A stretch of 64,000 bases of DNA from Mediterraneibacter glycyrrhizinilyticus. Lineage in GTDB: Bacteria > Bacillota > Clostridia > Lachnospirales > Lachnospiraceae. Shown here in pieces: positions 5,015 to 18,678 of the stretch. The number at the start of each line of letters is the position of its first letter. Position 1 is the first letter of the stretch. Below the pieces are notes generated by a model. It searched no databases, had not been told where the DNA came from, and was given only the letters and a program-made list of their open reading frames with translations. The position numbers were made by a program, and so were the translations under genes. The stretch spans positions 1 to 64,000 of the forward strand of contig NZ_JADMSO010000001.1 in assembly GCF_015560805.1 (NCBI RefSeq), written 5' to 3'.

Positions 5015-6773
5015 AACTGGTACTATTTACGGAATCAACGGTCCCGTCATTTACCTGAAAGGAAATACCGGTTTCCGTATGTCGGAGATGGTTTATGTGG
5101 GACATGAGAAACTGGTCGGAGAAGTGATCTCTCTGGACAAGGATCTGACAACGATCCAGGTATATGAAGAGACGACGGGGCTTCGTCCGGGCGAGGAAGT
5201 GACCGCAACAGGAAGCGCGGTTTCTGTTACGCTTGCACCGGGAATCCTGAACAATATTTTTGATGGAATCGAGCGTCCGCTGGAAAAGATCGCAGAGACC
5301 GGCGGCGCGTTTATCACACGCGGTGTCAGTGTGGATAACCTGGACCGCACAAAGAAATGGTCGGCGCATCTGACCGTTTCTGTCGGAGACTATCTGCACG
5401 GCGGCGACATCATCGCCGAAGTGCCGGAGACACGCGCGATCGTGCACAAATGTATGGTTCCGCCGGATCTGGAGGGAACGGTTCTTTCGGTTGTCCCGGA
5501 CGGCGAGTATACGATCGACGAGGTGCTCGTTGTGATCGAGACTTCGGAGGGTGTGAAAAAAGAGCTGACGATGACGCAGCGCTGGCCGATCCGTGTGGCT
5601 CGTCCGACGCATCACCGTTTCCCGGCATCCATCCCGCTTGTAACCGGACAGCGTATCATCGATACGATGTTCCCGATCGCAAAAGGCGGTACGGCTGCGA
5701 TCCCGGGAGGGTTCGGAACAGGAAAGACAATGACGCAGCACCAGATCGCAAAATGGTCTGACGCTGATATCATCATTTATATCGGATGTGGAGAGCGTGG
5801 AAACGAGATGACACAGGTTCTCGAAGAGTTCAGTGAACTGACAGATCCGAAGAGCGGAAATCCGCTGATGGATCGGACGACACTGATCGCCAACACATCC
5901 AACATGCCGGTTGCTGCCCGTGAGGCAAGTATTTACACCGGACTGACATTGGCAGAATACTATCGTGATATGGGATATGACGTGGCGATCATGGCAGACT
6001 CCACATCCCGTTGGGCAGAGGCCTTGCGTGAGTTGTCCGGACGTCTGGAAGAGATGCCTGCGGAAGAGGGATTCCCGGCATATCTGGCATCCAAGCTGTC
6101 CGCGTTCTACGAGAGAGCCGGAATGATGCACAACTTAAACGGAACCGACGGTTCGGTTACGATCATCGGAGCGGTATCTCCGCAGGGCGGTGACTTCTCC
6201 GAGCCGGTGACACAGAACACGAAGCGTTTCGTGCGCTGCTTCTGGGGACTGGATAAGAGCCTTGCCTATGCGAGACATTTCCCGGCGATCCACTGGCTGA
6301 CAAGTTACAGCGAGTATCTCGGCGATCTTGCGCCGTGGTATCAGGATCATGTATCTCCGAAGTTCGTTGATTACCGGAACCGCCTGATGGCGCTTCTGAA
6401 CTCCGAGAGCAGTCTTTTAGAGATCGTAAAACTGATCGGAAGCGATGTGCTTCCGGATGATCAGAAGCTGATCCTTGAGATCGCCCGTGTGATCCGTCTT
6501 GGATTTTTGCAGCAGAATGCGTTCCACAAGGACGATACCTGCGTTTCTATGGAGAAGCAGTTCCTGATGATGGACACGATTTTGTATCTTTATAAACAAT
6601 GCCGTGCACTTGTGACGATGGGACATCCGATGTCCGTACTGAAGTCGGAAAATATTTTCGAGAAAGTCATCGCGATCAAATATGACGTGCCGAATGACCG
6701 TCTGGAAATGTTCGCGCAGTACCACAAGGATATTGATGAATTCTATCAGCGTGTGCTGGAGAAAAATGCGTAA
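5007..6773 (+). CDS. ntpA: V-type ATPase catalytic subunit A
   Basis: The catalytic subunit, 588 residues. The P-loop reads GGFGTGKT near residue 233; the catalytic Glu region (GCGERGNEM) and the A-type insert upstream of the nucleotide domain are present, and the length is normal for the family (580-595). I chose the TTG at 5007 because GGGAGGTG sits 6 bases upstream and the protein then begins [13 protein letters not shown] as its homologues do; the longer ATG form at 4968 lies inside ntpE. The gene overlaps the end of ntpE by 8 bases. It forms the A3B3 head with NtpB. Confidence 0.97.
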
Positions 6774-6787
6774 GGAGGGAATTTGCG

Positions 6788-8173
6788 ATGTCAATTGAAT
6801 ATTTAGGACTGAGCAGTATCAATGGTCCTCTGATCGCGTTGGAGGGCGTGCAGGATGCTTTTTACGATGAGATCGTGGAATTTGTCGTAGACGGCACAGA
6901 GCGCAAGATCGGACGTATTGTCGAGATTTACGAGGACAAAGCCGTGATCCAGGTGTTCGAGGGATCCGAGAATATGTCTCTGAAAAATACACATACCCGT
7001 CTGACCGGACATCCGATGGAGATCGCACTCTCCCCGGATATGCTGGGACGGACGTTCAACGGAATCGGTCAGCCGATCGACGATCTGGGACCGATCACTT
7101 CCACATTGAAGCGGGACGTCAACGGTCTGCCGCTGAACCCGGTGGAACGTGAGTATCCGCGTAACTATATCCACACCGGAATTTCCGCGATCGACGGTCT
7201 GACAACACTGATCCGTGGTCAGAAGCTGCCGATCTTCTCCGGAAACGGTCTTCCGCATGACCAGCTTGCAGCGCAGATCGTAAAACAGGCTTCCCTCGGT
7301 GAAAATTCCGACGAGCAGTTCGCGATCGTATTTGCCGCGATGGGCGTCAAGCATGACGTTGCGGATTTCTTCCGCCGTACGTTTGAGGACAGCGGTGTTG
7401 CCGATCACGTTGCGATGTTTTTGAACCTTGCAAACGATCCGGTCGTAGAGCGTCTGATCACGCCGAAAGTGGCGCTTACCGTTGCGGAATATCTGGCGTT
7501 TGAACAGAACATGCACATTCTGGTCATTCTGACGGATATGACTTCTTTTGCGGAGGCGATGCGTGAGGTATCTTCTTCCAAGGGAGAGATTCCAAGCCGT
7601 AAAGGTTTCCCGGGATATCTGTACAGTGAACTGGCAACGATCTACGAGCGTGCCGGAATCGTGCAGGGCGTGAACGGATCTGTGACACAGCTTCCGATCC
7701 TGACCATGCCGAACGATGATATCACACATCCGATCCCTGACCTGACCGGATATATCACGGAGGGACAGATCGTACTGGATCGTGAGTTGAACGGACAGTC
7801 GATTTACCCGCCGATCAATATCCTGCCGTCACTGTCCCGTCTGATGAAAGACGGTATCGGAGCCGGATATACGAGAGAGGATCATCAGGATCTGGCGAAC
7901 CAGTTGTTCTCCGCTTACGCAAAAGTAGGAGACGCAAGAAACCTTGCATCCGTTATCGGTGAGGACGAACTGTCTCCGATCGACAAGAAATATCTGGAGT
8001 TCGGAAAAGAATTTGAGACACGTTATATCGGACAGGGCATGAACGAGAACCGAAGCATGGAAGAGACTCTGGATCTTGGATGGGAGCTGCTGGGACTTCT
8101 TCCGAGAGAAGAACTTGACCGTGTGGATACGAAGATACTGGATAAGTATTATAAGGCAAAACCGGAAGACTGA
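6788..8173 (+). CDS. ntpB: V-type ATPase regulatory subunit B
   Basis: The non-catalytic nucleotide-fold subunit, 461 residues. It aligns in character with subunit A but has the degenerate P-loop typical of B ([13 protein letters not shown]) instead of GxGxGKT. Family landmarks include MAEYLAFEQ-like helices and [15 protein letters not shown] strong AAGGAGGG precedes the ATG. Located between ntpA and ntpD as in other bacterial V-type operons. Confidence 0.97.
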
Positions 8174-12534: not shown

Positions 12535-13206
12535 ATGTATCGGATCTTGATCGTGGAAGATGACAGAGGGATTGCGGAATCCATACGGGAACAGGCGAAT
12601 ATGTGGGGATTTACAGCGAAATGTGCGGCAAAATTCAGCAATATCATGGAAGAGTTTGCCGCATTTGATCCGCAGCTTGTACTTCTGGATATTTCGCTTC
12701 CTTTTTATAATGGTTATCATTGGTGCGCGGAAATCCGTAAGGTTTCAAAAGTTCCGGTGATCTTCATCTCTTCGGCGTCGGATAATATGAATATCGTAAT
12801 GGCGATGAATATGGGCGCCGATGATTTTATTGCGAAGCCGTTTGATCTGAACGTGTTGATCGCGAAGATCCAGGCGCTTCTCCGACGAACCTATGATTTT
12901 GGAAATACGGTTCCGGTGCTGGAGCACCGCGGCGCGATCTTAAATACCGGAGACAATACGCTGACCTATCGGGAGGAGAAGATCTCACTGACCAAAAATG
13001 AATACCGGATCTTATTGGCGCTGATGGAGAATAAGGGGAAAGTAGTCAGCCGCGAACGATTGATGGAGCGTCTGTGGGAAACGGACTGTTTTGTAGATGA
13101 CAATACGCTGACCGTGAATATCAACCGGCTTCGGAAGAAGCTGGATGGGGCGGGACTGGAAGAGTTTATCGTGACGAAATTCGGCAGGGGGTATTTGGTT
13201 GAGTAG
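12535..13206 (+). CDS. bceR: OmpR-family response regulator (BceR-like)
   Basis: A 223-residue response regulator. Receiver domain 1-115 with acidic pocket (VEDD), phosphorylated Asp in LLDISLPFYNGY, the switch Thr/Ser region (ISSASD) and Lys in AKPFD; C-terminal OmpR-type winged helix (LTKNEYRILLALM, DNTLTVNINRLRKKL). The ATG at 12535 follows AAGGAGG. Its kinase partner was originally the directly overlapping BceS gene, but a 1.5-kb insertion now separates them. The last 39 bases of this gene lie in the 43-bp direct repeat (13168-13210), so its C-terminus is intact. Should drive bceAB through the dyad at 15714-15733. Confidence 0.9.
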   Translation: MYRILIVEDDRGIAESIREQANMWGFTAKCAAKFSNIMEEFAAFDPQLVLLDISLPFYNGYHWCAEIRKVSKVPVIFISSASDNMNIVMAMNMGADDFIAKPFDLNVLIAKIQALLRRTYDFGNTVPVLEHRGAILNTGDNTLTYREEKISLTKNEYRILLALMENKGKVVSRERLMERLWETDCFVDDNTLTVNINRLRKKLDGAGLEEFIVTKFGRGYLVE

Positions 13207-13210
13207 AGAG
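13168..13210 (+). repeat. 43-bp direct repeat, left copy (3' end of bceR)
   Basis: Identical over 43 bases to 14668-14710 and exactly 1,500 bases from it. This copy holds the last 13 codons of bceR and the ribosome binding site and TTG that would have started bceS. After one mismatch, a further 5 bases match. It marks the left edge of an insertion. Confidence 0.97.
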
Positions 13211-13234
13211 AAGTTTGAATATTTGCATTTGAGT

Positions 13235-13289
13235 TTTCTAACCGTTTTTCTAACCAAAATTTGACAAGAATGGTTAGAAAGAATAGAAT
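13235..13289 (+). promoter_or_regulatory. Promoter and operator repeats of the inserted AlbA-type gene
   Basis: TTGACA (13261-13266) and TAGAAT (13284-13289) are 17 bases apart. TTTCTAACC occurs at 13235-13243 and 13247-13255, and its inverse GGTTAGAAA at 13272-13280 inside the promoter spacer. Three half-sites over the promoter suggest autoregulation by the downstream protein, which has its own winged helix. Confidence 0.75.
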
Positions 13290-13322
13290 ATGGGTAGAAT
13301 ATTTTGAGGGGGAGGCGATCAG

Positions 13323-14648
13323 ATGAATTTTCAAGAAAGCGAAACCGTGGAATTGAAATCTATTGTAGTGGATGATATAAAGAAAGAGATTATAGCGTTT
13401 GCTAATTGTGAAGGTGGGATATTGTATATTGGGGTTCAGTATGACGGTATGGTGCTTGGCGTGGATGATCCGGATGAAACTGCTTTGCAGATCAGCAACA
13501 TGGTTCGGGATGCGATCAAACCGGATCTCACGATGTTTCTGCATTATGAAACGATTGATGTAGATGAAAAAAAGATTGTCGCGGTTTCCGTACAACAGGG
13601 AACAGAGCGCCCCTATTATATTGCGAAAAAAGGACTTCGCCCCGAGGGTGTTTATGTTCGGCAAGGATATTCATCGGTGCCTGCAACGAATACGGTGATC
13701 CGATACATGATCAAAGAAACCGATGGAGATCATTTTGAGGAAAGGCGGTCTTTGGAACAGAATTTGACTTTTGAAGCGGCAGAAAAAGAGTTTTCCGAGC
13801 GGGATATTTTATTTGGAACGGCGCAGATGAAAACATTGGGAATCATGACACAAGATGGAGTTTATACCAATTTAGGACTTTTATTGTCGGATCAATGTGT
13901 GCATACAATCAAAGCGGCAGTTTTTGAGGGAACGACTCAAAATGAGTTTAAAGACCGAAAAGAATTTTCCGGTTCACTGTTTCGGCAAATGGAAGATGTA
14001 TATGAATATATTGATTTTCGTAATCAAATGCATTCAACATTTCAAAAATTACGCCGGATCGATCAAAGGGATTATCCGGAAACCGCTGTCAGAGAAGCGC
14101 TGCTGAACTTGCTTGTACATCGTGAATATTCATTTCGGGCGAGCACATTTATCAGTATTTATACCGATCGGATTGAGTTTACATCAATCGGAGGTTTGGT
14201 AAATGGCGTGACATTAAAGGACGTATTGATGGGGATTTCCGTATGCAGGAATGTGAAATTAGCAAATGTATTTTATCGTTTGGAACTAATTGAAGCATAT
14301 GGGACGGGAATGCGAAAAATCCAGGAATCTTATGCCGGAACCGGAAAGGAACCGAAGATCGAAGTCTCAGACAATGCGTTTAAGATTGTACTTCCTAATT
14401 TGAATTTATGTACGCAACAAAAGGATATGAATATGGAAAATACGACAGAAAGTCTGCGGGAGAATGTTGTGATCAATCTGGCAAAAGAGTTGGGAACTTT
14501 TACACGAAAAGATCTGGAAAAGCGATTAGATATCAGTCAGACATCGTGTGGACGGCTGATAAAACAGATGATAGAAAGCGGAGAGATCGTTCAGGTGGGA
14601 AAAGGAAGAAGTACACGTTATCAGCTTGTACGGCAGAATAAAATGTAA
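13323..14648 (+). CDS. AlbA-type ATP-binding putative transcriptional regulator
   Basis: A 441-residue protein of the family with an N-terminal AlbA_2 (Schlafen-like) domain (residues 3-120; SETVELKSI, IAFANCEGGILYIGV), a GHKL-like ATP-binding domain in the middle (around residues 250-350; ETAVREALLNLLVHREYS) and a C-terminal winged helix (FTRKDLEKRLDISQTSCGRL, STRYQLV). These proteins are common in Clostridia; their function is poorly known. GGAGG is 7 bases upstream of the ATG. It is the only gene of the 1.5-kb insertion between bceR and bceS and has its own promoter. It could regulate the bce genes it splits, or be unrelated cargo. Confidence 0.85.
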   Translation: MNFQESETVELKSIVVDDIKKEIIAFANCEGGILYIGVQYDGMVLGVDDPDETALQISNMVRDAIKPDLTMFLHYETIDVDEKKIVAVSVQQGTERPYYIAKKGLRPEGVYVRQGYSSVPATNTVIRYMIKETDGDHFEERRSLEQNLTFEAAEKEFSERDILFGTAQMKTLGIMTQDGVYTNLGLLLSDQCVHTIKAAVFEGTTQNEFKDRKEFSGSLFRQMEDVYEYIDFRNQMHSTFQKLRRIDQRDYPETAVREALLNLLVHREYSFRASTFISIYTDRIEFTSIGGLVNGVTLKDVLMGISVCRNVKLANVFYRLELIEAYGTGMRKIQESYAGTGKEPKIEVSDNAFKIVLPNLNLCTQQKDMNMENTTESLRENVVINLAKELGTFTRKDLEKRLDISQTSCGRLIKQMIESGEIVQVGKGRSTRYQLVRQNKM

Positions 14649-14667
14649 CAGAGGGCGAAATCTTTTC

Positions 14668-14710
14668 ATCGTGACGAAATTCGGCAGGGGGTATTTGGTT
14701 GAGTAGAGAG
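14668..14710 (+). repeat. 43-bp direct repeat, right copy (bceS start region)
   Basis: Second copy of the sequence at 13168-13210. Here it provides the AGGGGG ribosome binding site and the TTG start codon of bceS at 14699. The bases before it are unrelated to the bceR sequence, so the identity stops sharply at 43 bases. Confidence 0.97.
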
Positions 14711-15697
14711 CAGTTTTTTAAGATTTATCTGCGGCAGAGCCGGAAAGGTATCGGGATCTTTTTCCTGTTTTGTGCCGTTTTTCTTTGTATTTTTCTTTTG
14801 TATGATTTGCCGGCAGGCGCGGTTGTATATCCGGCTTTGATCTGTTCGGTACTTGGCGCGGGTGTTTTGGTGCGTGGTTACTACAGTGCGTATCAAAAAC
14901 ATCGGGAACTGGACAGGATTGCACAACTGTCTTCTGAATTGATGGAACATTTTCCGGAAAAGAGAACGGCGGCGGATTGGGATTATCAGGAGGTGATCGG
15001 ACACCTCCGTGAAGAGCAGAGCAGTCTGAAGAATCAGTTGGATATGCGTTATACCGACATGATGGAATATTATACGGTCTGGGTGCATCAGATCAAGACT
15101 CCGATCGCATCCATGCGTCTGATGCTACAGAATGAGGATTCCGATCAGGCGAGACGGCTTTCGGAGGAGCTGTCGAGGATCGAGCAGTATGTGGAAATGG
15201 TGCTTGTATATCTGCGTCTGGATTCCGAATCGAAAGATCATGTATTTCGTAAATGTGATCTGGATCAGATCGTGCGCGGAGAAGTGAAGAAATTTGCGGG
15301 ACAGTTTATCCGGAGAAAGATCGGGCTGCGGTATGAACCGCTTGGCTGTGAAGTGTTGACGGATGAGAAATGGCTGGCGTTTGTCGTGGAGCAGGTGATC
15401 TCCAATGCGCTGAAATATACCGAAGAGGGGGAGATCACGATCACATTGGAGGAACCGAAGACGCTCTGTATCCGGGATACCGGGATCGGGATCGCTCCGG
15501 AAGATCTGCCGCGTATTTTTGAAAAGGGATATACCGGATACAATGGACGCGCCGATAAAAAAGCAAGCGGTATCGGCCTCTATCTTTGCCGGCGGATCTG
15601 CACACAGCTCGGACATCGGATCTGGGCGGAATCTGCGCCCGGCGTTGGAACTGTGATCAAGATCGATCTGGAACGGGAAGAATTACAGGTGGAATAG
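14699..15697 (+). CDS. bceS: Sensor histidine kinase, intramembrane-sensing (BceS-like)
   Basis: A 332-residue kinase with two N-terminal membrane helices (about residues 15-60) and almost no extracytoplasmic loop, as in BceS kinases that sense through their ABC transporter. The phospho-acceptor His is in WVHQIKTPIASM, the N box in NALKYT and the G1 box in DTGIGI. The TTG at 14699 is preceded by AGGGGG and lies inside the 43-bp repeat; before the insertion it overlapped the bceR stop. It is followed by bceAB after 139 bases that include a BceR-type site. Confidence 0.9.
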   Translation: MSREQFFKIYLRQSRKGIGIFFLFCAVFLCIFLLYDLPAGAVVYPALICSVLGAGVLVRGYYSAYQKHRELDRIAQLSSELMEHFPEKRTAADWDYQEVIGHLREEQSSLKNQLDMRYTDMMEYYTVWVHQIKTPIASMRLMLQNEDSDQARRLSEELSRIEQYVEMVLVYLRLDSESKDHVFRKCDLDQIVRGEVKKFAGQFIRRKIGLRYEPLGCEVLTDEKWLAFVVEQVISNALKYTEEGEITITLEEPKTLCIRDTGIGIAPEDLPRIFEKGYTGYNGRADKKASGIGLYLCRRICTQLGHRIWAESAPGVGTVIKIDLEREELQVE

Positions 15698-15835: not shown

Positions 15836-16600
15836 ATGAGTATTCTGGAAGTAAATGGATTGAAGAAAGTATATACAACCCGGTTTGGCGGAAATAAAGT
15901 GGAAGCGCTCCGAAACGTGAATTTTTCCGTGGAGGAGGGAGAGTATGTCGCGATCATGGGGGAGTCGGGAAGCGGAAAGACAACGCTTTTAAACATTCTC
16001 GCGGCGCTTGACAGACCGACCGGGGGAACCGTGCAGTTGGACGGAAAGAATCTTGCGTCGATCAAAGATTCGGCGATCGCATCATTTCGGCGGGAACACC
16101 TTGGATTTGTATTTCAGGATTTTAATCTGTTAGATACATTTTCATTGGAGGACAATATTTATCTGCCGCTTGTACTGGCGGGAAAACAGTATCAGGAAAT
16201 GCACTCCCGACTGGAACCGTTGGCGAAGAAACTGGGGATCATATCGCTTCTGAAGAAATATCCGTACGAGGTATCGGGAGGACAGAAGCAGCGCGCGGCA
16301 GTGGCGCGGGCGCTGATCACGGATCCGCGTCTGGTGCTGGCAGACGAACCGACCGGAGCGTTGGATTCCCGGGCAACCGACGAACTGCTCCGTCTGTTCA
16401 ATACGATCAATGAGGACGGACAGACGATTTTGATGGTCACACATTCGGTGAAAGCGGCAAGCCATGCAGGACGGGTGTTATTCATCAAAGACGGAGAAGT
16501 GTATCATCAGATCTACCGTGGCGACAGTACGGAGGAACAGATGTACCAGAAAATCTCCGACACGCTGACCGTGCTGACGACCGGAGGTGAGAACCGATGA
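15836..16600 (+). CDS. bceA: ABC transporter ATPase, peptide-antibiotic resistance (BceA-like)
   Basis: A 254-residue MacB-type ATPase: Walker A GESGSGKTT, signature VSGGQKQRAAVARAL, Walker [15 protein letters not shown]-loop THSVKAAS. AGGAGG precedes the ATG. The stop overlaps the bceB start (ATGA). Together with BceB it should free the cell-wall lipid cycle from peptide antibiotics such as bacitracin, and signal flux to BceS. The specific drug cannot be read from sequence. Confidence 0.93.
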   Translation: MSILEVNGLKKVYTTRFGGNKVEALRNVNFSVEEGEYVAIMGESGSGKTTLLNILAALDRPTGGTVQLDGKNLASIKDSAIASFRREHLGFVFQDFNLLDTFSLEDNIYLPLVLAGKQYQEMHSRLEPLAKKLGIISLLKKYPYEVSGGQKQRAAVARALITDPRLVLADEPTGALDSRATDELLRLFNTINEDGQTILMVTHSVKAASHAGRVLFIKDGEVYHQIYRGDSTEEQMYQKISDTLTVLTTGGENR

Positions 16601-18678
16601 AAATGACATTTTATCCAAAGATGGCGTGGATGGGGATTCGGAAAAACAGCCGGATGTACGTTCCGTATCTGCTGACCTGCGCGGGAATGATCGCGATGTA
16701 CTATATCATGGCATTTCTGGCATTCAGCAATGTGCTGTTAAAGGTAGAGGGCGGAGAAATTTTAAATTCGATCATGGGACTTGGCAGTATTGTGATCGGA
16801 GTGTTCGCACTGATCTTCTTATTTTACACAAACTCTTTTTTGATCCGGAGAAGAAAAAAGGAGTTCGGTCTTTATAACATTTTAGGCATGGGAAAAGCGA
16901 ATCTGGCGCATGTACTGATCTGGGAAAATGTGATGAGTTTTCTGATCTCGCTTGGAGGCGGACTGACGGTCGGCATATTGCTGTCCAAATTTTCGGAACT
17001 TTGTCTTTTGAAGCTGGTGCATATGGAGACGGGATTTTCCATGCAGATTGACTGGGAAGCATTATGCAGGACAGTGACGTTGTTTGCGGTTATTTTCCTG
17101 CTGCTTTTACTCAATGCGCTGCGTCAGGTACGTCTGGCAAATCCGATCGAGCTTCTGCACAGCGAGCAGGTCGGTGAAAAACCGCCGAGGGCGAATTGGA
17201 TCCTGGCGATCGCAGGGGCGGTGATTCTGGCAGGGGCGTATTACATCGCAGTTTCCATTGAGGATCCGATCACGGCGATGCTCTGGTTCTTCGTGGCGGT
17301 CGTAATGGTGATCATCGCAACGTATCTGCTGTTTATTGCCGGTTCGGTGACATTGTGCCGGATTCTGCAGAGAAAGAAGAAATATTATTATAAGACACAG
17401 CATTTTATTTCGGTATCTTCGATGATGTACCGGATGAAACGGAACGGAGCGGGACTTGCGTCAATCTGCATCCTCGGAACAATGGTGCTTGTTATGCTTT
17501 CCTCTACGATCTGTATGTATGTGGGAGCGGAGGACGCTCTCCGGGGACAGTATCCGAGAAATATCAATATTACAGTGGCAACTTATGATCAGGCAGGATT
17601 GGAGAGTGGGATCTGTGAAGACCTGACAGGGCAGGCCGAAGACGCGGCGAAAGCTTTGGGACAAAAACCGGAAAATGTGATCGATTACAAGACGGCAGCG
17701 ATCGCAGGATCGATCAACGAGGGGCAGATCAGCCTTTCCAAGACAACATTGGAGCAGTATCAGGTAGATAGTTATTCCGATCTGTGGCAGTTCTTTGTTG
17801 TGTCACTGGATCAATATAACCGCGTGATGGGAACAAAAGAGACATTAAAAGAAGATGAGGCGATGATCTGCACGATAAAGGCGGACTACAAAGAAGATAC
17901 GATCGCAGTGGAGGGCGGAAAGACTTACAAGATCAAAAAAGAAGTGGAGCAGTTTGTACCGCTTGCCAGCGATGCGATGTCGATCTTTGCGTCGATGTTT
18001 TTGATCGTGCCGGATTTTGACGCGTGGACACAGGAGACGGAAGCGCTGCTTGCGGCAATCCCGCCGGAAGAATTTTCGCTGATGCTGGATCGGAAAATCC
18101 AGTATTGCTGGATTTACGGTTATGATTTGGACTGTGAGGATGAAATACAGAATCAGATCATTGCCGGACTGAAAAATTCGATCGAGACGTATAAAGGACA
18201 ACATCCGGGAACAAACGGGGAAGTATTCGAGATCTATTCCGGCGGTGTGGCGACGGCAAGGGAATCGTTTTACACATTGTACGGCGGAATCTTTTTCCTT
18301 GGCATCATGCTCGGAATCGTCTTTGTGTTTGCGGCTGTTTTGATCGTGTACTACAAGCAGATCTCGGAGGGATATGAAGATCAGTCCCGGTTTGAGATCA
18401 TGCAGAAAGTCGGAATGACAAAACGGGAAATCCGAAAGAGTATCAATTCACAGATGCTGACGGTATTTTTCCTGCCGCTGGTGACGGCAGGCGTTCATCT
18501 GGCGTTTGCTTTCCCGCTGATCTACAAATTGATCCAGTTATTCGGGATCGACAATCTGCAGCTTTTGATCTGTGCGGCGGGCATCTGCTTCGTGATCTTC
18601 GGTCTGTTCTATGTCCTTGTATACCGGCTGACATCAGAGGCTTATTACTCGATCGTGAGCGGTGCGAGAGAGCGGTGA
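16597..18678 (+). CDS. bceB: FtsX-type ABC permease (BceB-like)
   Basis: A 693-residue permease of the BceB family, with about ten membrane helices: one at 20-40, a pair around 55-80, further helices to about residue 310, then a large extracellular domain of about 210 residues (about 320-540), and three C-terminal helices with the FtsX motif (FEIMQKVGMTKREIR). The big domain between helices 7 and 8 is where BceB proteins recognise the antibiotic-bound lipid. Coupled to bceA by overlap. Confidence 0.93.
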   Translation: MKMTFYPKMAWMGIRKNSRMYVPYLLTCAGMIAMYYIMAFLAFSNVLLKVEGGEILNSIMGLGSIVIGVFALIFLFYTNSFLIRRRKKEFGLYNILGMGKANLAHVLIWENVMSFLISLGGGLTVGILLSKFSELCLLKLVHMETGFSMQIDWEALCRTVTLFAVIFLLLLLNALRQVRLANPIELLHSEQVGEKPPRANWILAIAGAVILAGAYYIAVSIEDPITAMLWFFVAVVMVIIATYLLFIAGSVTLCRILQRKKKYYYKTQHFISVSSMMYRMKRNGAGLASICILGTMVLVMLSSTICMYVGAEDALRGQYPRNINITVATYDQAGLESGICEDLTGQAEDAAKALGQKPENVIDYKTAAIAGSINEGQISLSKTTLEQYQVDSYSDLWQFFVVSLDQYNRVMGTKETLKEDEAMICTIKADYKEDTIAVEGGKTYKIKKEVEQFVPLASDAMSIFASMFLIVPDFDAWTQETEALLAAIPPEEFSLMLDRKIQYCWIYGYDLDCEDEIQNQIIAGLKNSIETYKGQHPGTNGEVFEIYSGGVATARESFYTLYGGIFFLGIMLGIVFVFAAVLIVYYKQISEGYEDQSRFEIMQKVGMTKREIRKSINSQMLTVFFLPLVTAGVHLAFAFPLIYKLIQLFGIDNLQLLICAAGICFVIFGLFYVLVYRLTSEAYYSIVSGARER

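Follow-up and report, generated by a model that had tools for sequence, protein, structure and literature searches.

A gene for an AlbA-type regulator was acquired at the junction between a bceR-like and a bceS-like gene of Mediterraneibacter glycyrrhizinilyticus, where it stands between two copies of that junction. That the gene is mobile and that the duplications flanking it and its homologs are genuine is very probable, and our confidence in the specific mechanism of insertion is about even. The analysis covered a window of 64,000 nucleotides (the whole stretch of DNA studied), together with homologous loci from other genomes.

A duplicated junction inside a Bce-type module

The first-pass annotation of the window had described a perfect repeat of 43 bp with a spacing of 1,500 bases, and direct comparison bore this out: positions 13168-13210 and 14668-14710, both read on the + strand, form a direct repeat without mismatch. 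The repeat extends to 13165-13216 and 14665-14716 with 50 of 52 positions identical, the mismatches at its edges being 13167 T / 14667 C and 13211 A / 14711 C. The window contains two instances of a 40-bp core, for which none of 100 shuffles yielded any match, with up to 3 mismatches allowed. No other convincing direct repeat of at least 30 bp was found across the whole 64 kb.

The left copy contains the final 39 bp of the bceR-like response regulator gene (12535..13206, + strand; Pfam Response_reg and Trans_reg_C), including its TAG stop codon at 13204-13206, and the right copy contains the GGGGG ribosome-binding site and the TTG start codon (14699) of the bceS-like sensor kinase gene (14699..15697, + strand; Pfam HATPase_c), as the annotation had proposed. 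The best NCBIfam match of bceS was SapS, under its cut-off. Profile matches identified a bceAB-like ABC ATPase and FtsX-type permease (15836..18678, + strand) as the remainder of what is a Bce-type module of response regulator, kinase, ABC ATPase and FtsX permease. When the repeat is collapsed to a single copy, bceR and bceS overlap by 8 bp, resembling the overlaps of several relatives (up to 16 bp). The insertion does part the two-component pair and yet keep both members, each being intact through its repeat copy.

A vacant bceR-bceS site had been predicted in relatives. In a limited sample of relatives' loci bearing a bceS homolog, 27 empty junctions were found, with bceR directly 5' of the bceS homolog and a gap of -16 to 126 bp. 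Three homologs of the inserted gene from the same genus (L005, L006 and L007, those with 50-73% identity to it and readable upstream flanks) sit behind other genes; one of the same-genus homologs in this identity range is disrupted. As the junction is vacant in 27 relatives and the same-genus homologs lie elsewhere, the AlbA gene was acquired here, i.e. by insertion.

The inserted gene and its predicted operator

The insert was expected to carry an AlbA-type regulator alone, with its own promoter, and this is what was found. Its sole gene (13323..14648, + strand) encodes a protein of 441 aa, for which homologs were recovered, with an SLFN_AlbA_2 domain (residues 5-121), a HATPase_c_4 domain (276-357) and a winged-helix C-terminus. 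As the two Pfam domains pass their gathering cut-offs (78.3 vs 25.3 bits and 61.9 vs 26 bits, respectively), the protein belongs to the SLFN_AlbA_2 plus HATPase_c_4 family. The same domains are found in known regulators of this type (COG2865-like), PDB 3lmm being a distant relative; unlike those, the genes described here appear as mobile cassettes.

Upstream of the gene, a sigma-70-like promoter (TTGACA-17-TAGAAT, 13261-13289) with 11 of 12 consensus positions lies within a predicted operator/promoter region (13233..13294, + strand), in which two direct and one inverted TTTCTAACC half-sites surround the promoter. A TTGAC box with repeated half-sites is present 50-70 bp upstream of most homologs examined, and comparison of 120 bp upstream revealed that the sequence of the half-sites varies by clade (TTCTAACC, TCTCGTCAA, ATCGTGTCA) while the layout of the AlbA operators stays. 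The presence of this box and of clade-specific repeated half-sites ahead of most homologs suggests that the AlbA-type gene is autoregulated.

Among homologs, E5 and K12 never vary and E10 hardly does; the spacing of E5 and E10 is the same as that of E205 and E210 in the Schlafen-13 nuclease (PMC5862951). The protein probably acts either as a transcription factor that regulates its own gene or as a Schlafen-like nuclease, both roles being putative. Its AlphaFold2 model had a mean pLDDT of 52, with confidence confined to the C-terminal winged helix. This winged helix resembles the N-terminus of AbiEi antitoxins, the matches to Pfam AbiEi_4 and to the PADLOC AbiEi profile both being weak; PADLOC otherwise gave no more than partial matches, to pAgo/Sir2-linked profiles.

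Flanking repeats of homologs and the Sir2 hotspot

Loci with homologs of the gene were taken from genome collections, and their flanks were compared over 1.4 kb and then over 450 bp with a control consisting of other ORFs of the same and related loci; a flanking direct repeat was counted at E <= 1e-5. The annotation had predicted homologs between other long duplications, and such loci were indeed found besides the window: flanking repeats were present in 9 of 49 distinct homolog loci, the window included, vs 0 of 212 control ORFs (Fisher p = 1.5e-7). The other 40 of the 49 had no repeat at this threshold, which counts against an att-like cassette reading.

The repeats are copies of the 3' ends or terminators of local genes. 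Besides the window locus (52 bp, 96%, end of bceR), they were located at a PAP2 stop codon (L067; 33 bp, 91%), at Sir2 ends (L069, 155 bp, 80%; L073, 84 bp, 92%; L098, 166 bp, 90%), at the end of rpsI with its terminator (L079; 68 bp, 85%), at a terminator (L104; 49 bp, 82%) and at S8 peptidase ends (L111, 37 bp, 97%; L115, 136 bp, 74%), the identities of rpsI, peptidase, PAP2, Sir2 and AbiE being by-eye readings of translations made without Pfam. A more diverged Sir2 copy, detectable by translation only, is present in L071. The spacing from repeat to repeat ranges from 1.4 to 1.9 kb across homolog loci. The expectation of duplications elsewhere thus held as regards repeats on both sides of the gene, but the second copy is often a related allele that does not match the local target exactly. 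For the PAP2 locus, the relatives found for an empty-site comparison were too distant (47-51%).

In most loci whose homologs share more than about 65% identity, similarity to the window DNA begins around 75-92 bp before the ATG and stops at the stop codon, which points to a mobile unit made of one gene plus its predicted operator. The homologs are spread across many genera, and the genes upstream of them fall into many groups, mostly unrelated between loci. A preference for co-directional upstream genes was considered and rejected (43/52 vs 113/158, not significant).

At the 3' end of Sir2, AlbA and AbiE cassettes occur in either order, and each is trailed by a copy of the Sir2 3' end that starts at a common junction motif, TGGYGCGCAATAAACAWAACACC. 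Thus, L069 reads Sir2, AlbA, Sir2 3' copy, AbiEi, AbiEii, and L073 reads Sir2, AbiEi, AbiEii, Sir2 3' copy, AlbA, Sir2 3' copy. The motif was detected in 8 of 397 family genomes and stands behind AbiEii, AlbA and an ATPase gene. The hotspot set comprises L069, L073, L074, L098, L119-L126 and L159, with AbiEi/AbiEii, AlbA and the ATPase gene as small cassettes. In L159, a predicted operator and a decayed fragment of the AlbA gene lie between Sir2 and a TGGYGCGCAATAAACAWAACACC-led 3' copy, which resembles the Sir2 of the same locus. In L138, a cargo-free TGGYGCGCAATAAACAWAACACC-led Sir2 3' fragment follows the intact gene at a distance of about 110 bp, and is possibly a scar left by cassette loss. 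Among 30 sampled Sir2 loci, 27 had no second Sir2 3' copy within the distance searched (up to 1.5 kb).

The differences between Sir2 copies were counted by codon position, giving 8/6/20 in L069, 4/4/10 in L074 and 6/4/10 in L098, or 18/14/40 when pooled (chi-square about 16, p about 3e-4, calculated by hand); between the first and last copies of L073 they were 6/1/16. Most orphan Sir2 copies keep an open frame. The concentration of differences at third codon positions argues that the copies are not simply decayed local duplicates. It fits alleles that would have diverged under selection in other genomes, with allele replacement following an older duplication as an alternative that this pattern also allows.

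Routes of insertion

The absence of an integrase from the insert, claimed in the annotation, stood: no integrase or recombinase adjoins it, and the five tyrosine recombinases of the genome (PF00589) are all on other contigs. An integrase-bearing element was likewise absent from the bceR-bceS junctions of the 27 relatives, a limited sampling, and no recombinase was recognised among the unannotated ORFs inspected in the short flanks of the loci with the Sir2 motif. AlbA is unlikely to act as its own recombinase in cis, because AlbA-free cassettes have the same Sir2 junction. In L077, an ORF read from its translation as tyrosine-integrase-like (6297-7335) lies in convergent orientation 34 bp behind the AlbA gene.

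Several known vehicles were rejected as sources. An ordinary transposon or IS does not match an insert with one gene only, neither transposase nor terminal inverted repeats, and a duplication of 43 bp vs the 2-15 bp expected, in line with the annotation's doubt about ordinary transposition. Viral contigs contained no relatives of the gene, no Sir2 junction motif and no bceR repeat, which speaks against a prophage or phage satellite; a record labelled 'Bacteriophage sp.' with a 65% homolog (MT838004.1, L129) appears chromosomal, its downstream ORFs reading as nadA, nadB and nadC. Plasmid matches were all under 60%, and the next-best match in the organism's own genome was merely 29% identical, discarding a plasmid origin and a second gene copy, respectively. 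The annotation had given no route of insertion; this can now be narrowed, since the repeats copy gene 3' ends, a product expected both from site-specific integration there and from insertion with long target duplication.

The reading that we favour, although its chances are evenly balanced, is that the insert is an att-flanked, integrase-less cassette of one gene, similar to a CIME, which entered by recombination at the bceR 3' end. The incoming cassette would have held the AlbA_2/HATPase_c_4/winged-helix regulator gene with its own predicted operator/promoter and nothing further, and would have brought, or gained on entry at the bceR-bceS junction, some 45-52 bp matching the end of bceR and the start of bceS. 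After integration, matching sequence would flank the insert in the manner of attL and attR, leaving both genes whole. Such integration would be site-specific, with a recombinase that acted in trans or was later lost, as in CIMEs, which are defined by the loss of integration and transfer genes with attL and attR kept (PMC5704250). The preference for this reading comes from the gene 3'-end targets, the rpsI target, the accretion-like arrays and the fixed junction. Tyrosine integrases are known to target the rpsI 3' end, with long direct repeats (PMC5357655), and att-like direct repeats that restore the end of the target gene are present both in the window and at other loci. As in CIMEs and in IMEs/ICEs at gene 3' ends (PMC5357655, PMC5704250), att-like copies of a gene end are found and the target is restored; the Sir2 array resembles the tandem accretion of IMEs/ICEs, and the lack of an integrase in the unit resembles CIMEs. 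In contrast to those elements, the unit has one gene and about 1.5 kb, targets differ between homologs, and no parent element with an integrase or relaxase was found here. By inspection, the different targets share no arm sequence, so several recombinases would be needed.

The window copies, given their shortness and close similarity, do not separate att-like integration from target duplication, and the perfect 43-bp copy is consistent equally well with a fresh duplication. Insertion with long target duplication, in which staggered breaks or repair synthesis duplicate a target stretch tens to hundreds of bp long and no site-specific recombinase takes part, has been reported for the restriction-modification genes of Helicobacter pylori (Nobusato et al. 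2000, as relayed in PMC1643837, PMC3031569 and PMC4978471). As far as those accounts describe it, the pattern is the same: a single gene or small unit, without transposase or integrase, between long direct target repeats. The identity of the window copies across 43 bp, the variation of repeat length with the target (33-166 bp), the movement of single genes or small units and the single-copy state of relatives' unoccupied sites (27 bceR-bceS junctions and 27 of 30 Sir2 loci) would all follow from it. We nevertheless consider this route unlikely, since unrelated cargos at Sir2 have one fixed junction motif, and the Sir2 copies, whose differences fall mostly at third codon positions and show no decay, would need later allele replacement. 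The cases also differ, within what the same accounts describe, in that the cargo here is an AlbA_2/HATPase_c_4 regulator of Lachnospiraceae and relatives, the repeats are gene 3' ends, and the copies at the Sir2 site look like diverged alleles with a fixed junction. Quite improbable is RecA-dependent or homology-facilitated illegitimate recombination, with one homologous crossover at a short gene-end match and one illegitimate joint: it agrees with the imported-allele pattern of the Sir2 copies and the occurrence of AlbA homologs in many genera, but 43-52 bp is short for RecA, and both the enrichment over 212 control ORFs and the fixed ends of the Sir2 cassettes are left unexplained. An assembly artefact or chance repeat is hardly credible; the genome is a draft of 28 contigs, but the repeat has two edge mismatches, the genes on both sides are intact, the chance expectation is 0 and independent genomes show the same architecture.

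Extended to the family, the CIME-like reading leads to a broader picture that we put forward tentatively and regard as rather doubtful: AlbA_2/HATPase_c_4 regulator genes may be the cargo of a class of minimal cassettes, each with a single gene and no integrase, that settle at the 3' ends of genes and rebuild those ends from sequence they bring along. At hotspots such as Sir2, they may be reshuffled together with toxin-antitoxin cassettes into arrays like those of integrons, with some recombination system driving the process.

Lone regulators, toxin-antitoxin genes and restriction-modification genes are often mobile without a visible transposase or integrase. A family with many insertions provides repeat copies to compare, vacant sites and a hotspot whose junction is fixed, which makes the movement of integrase-less genes testable. 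At the bceR-bceS junction, it reveals that insertion into an overlapping two-component operon is possible without breaking either gene.
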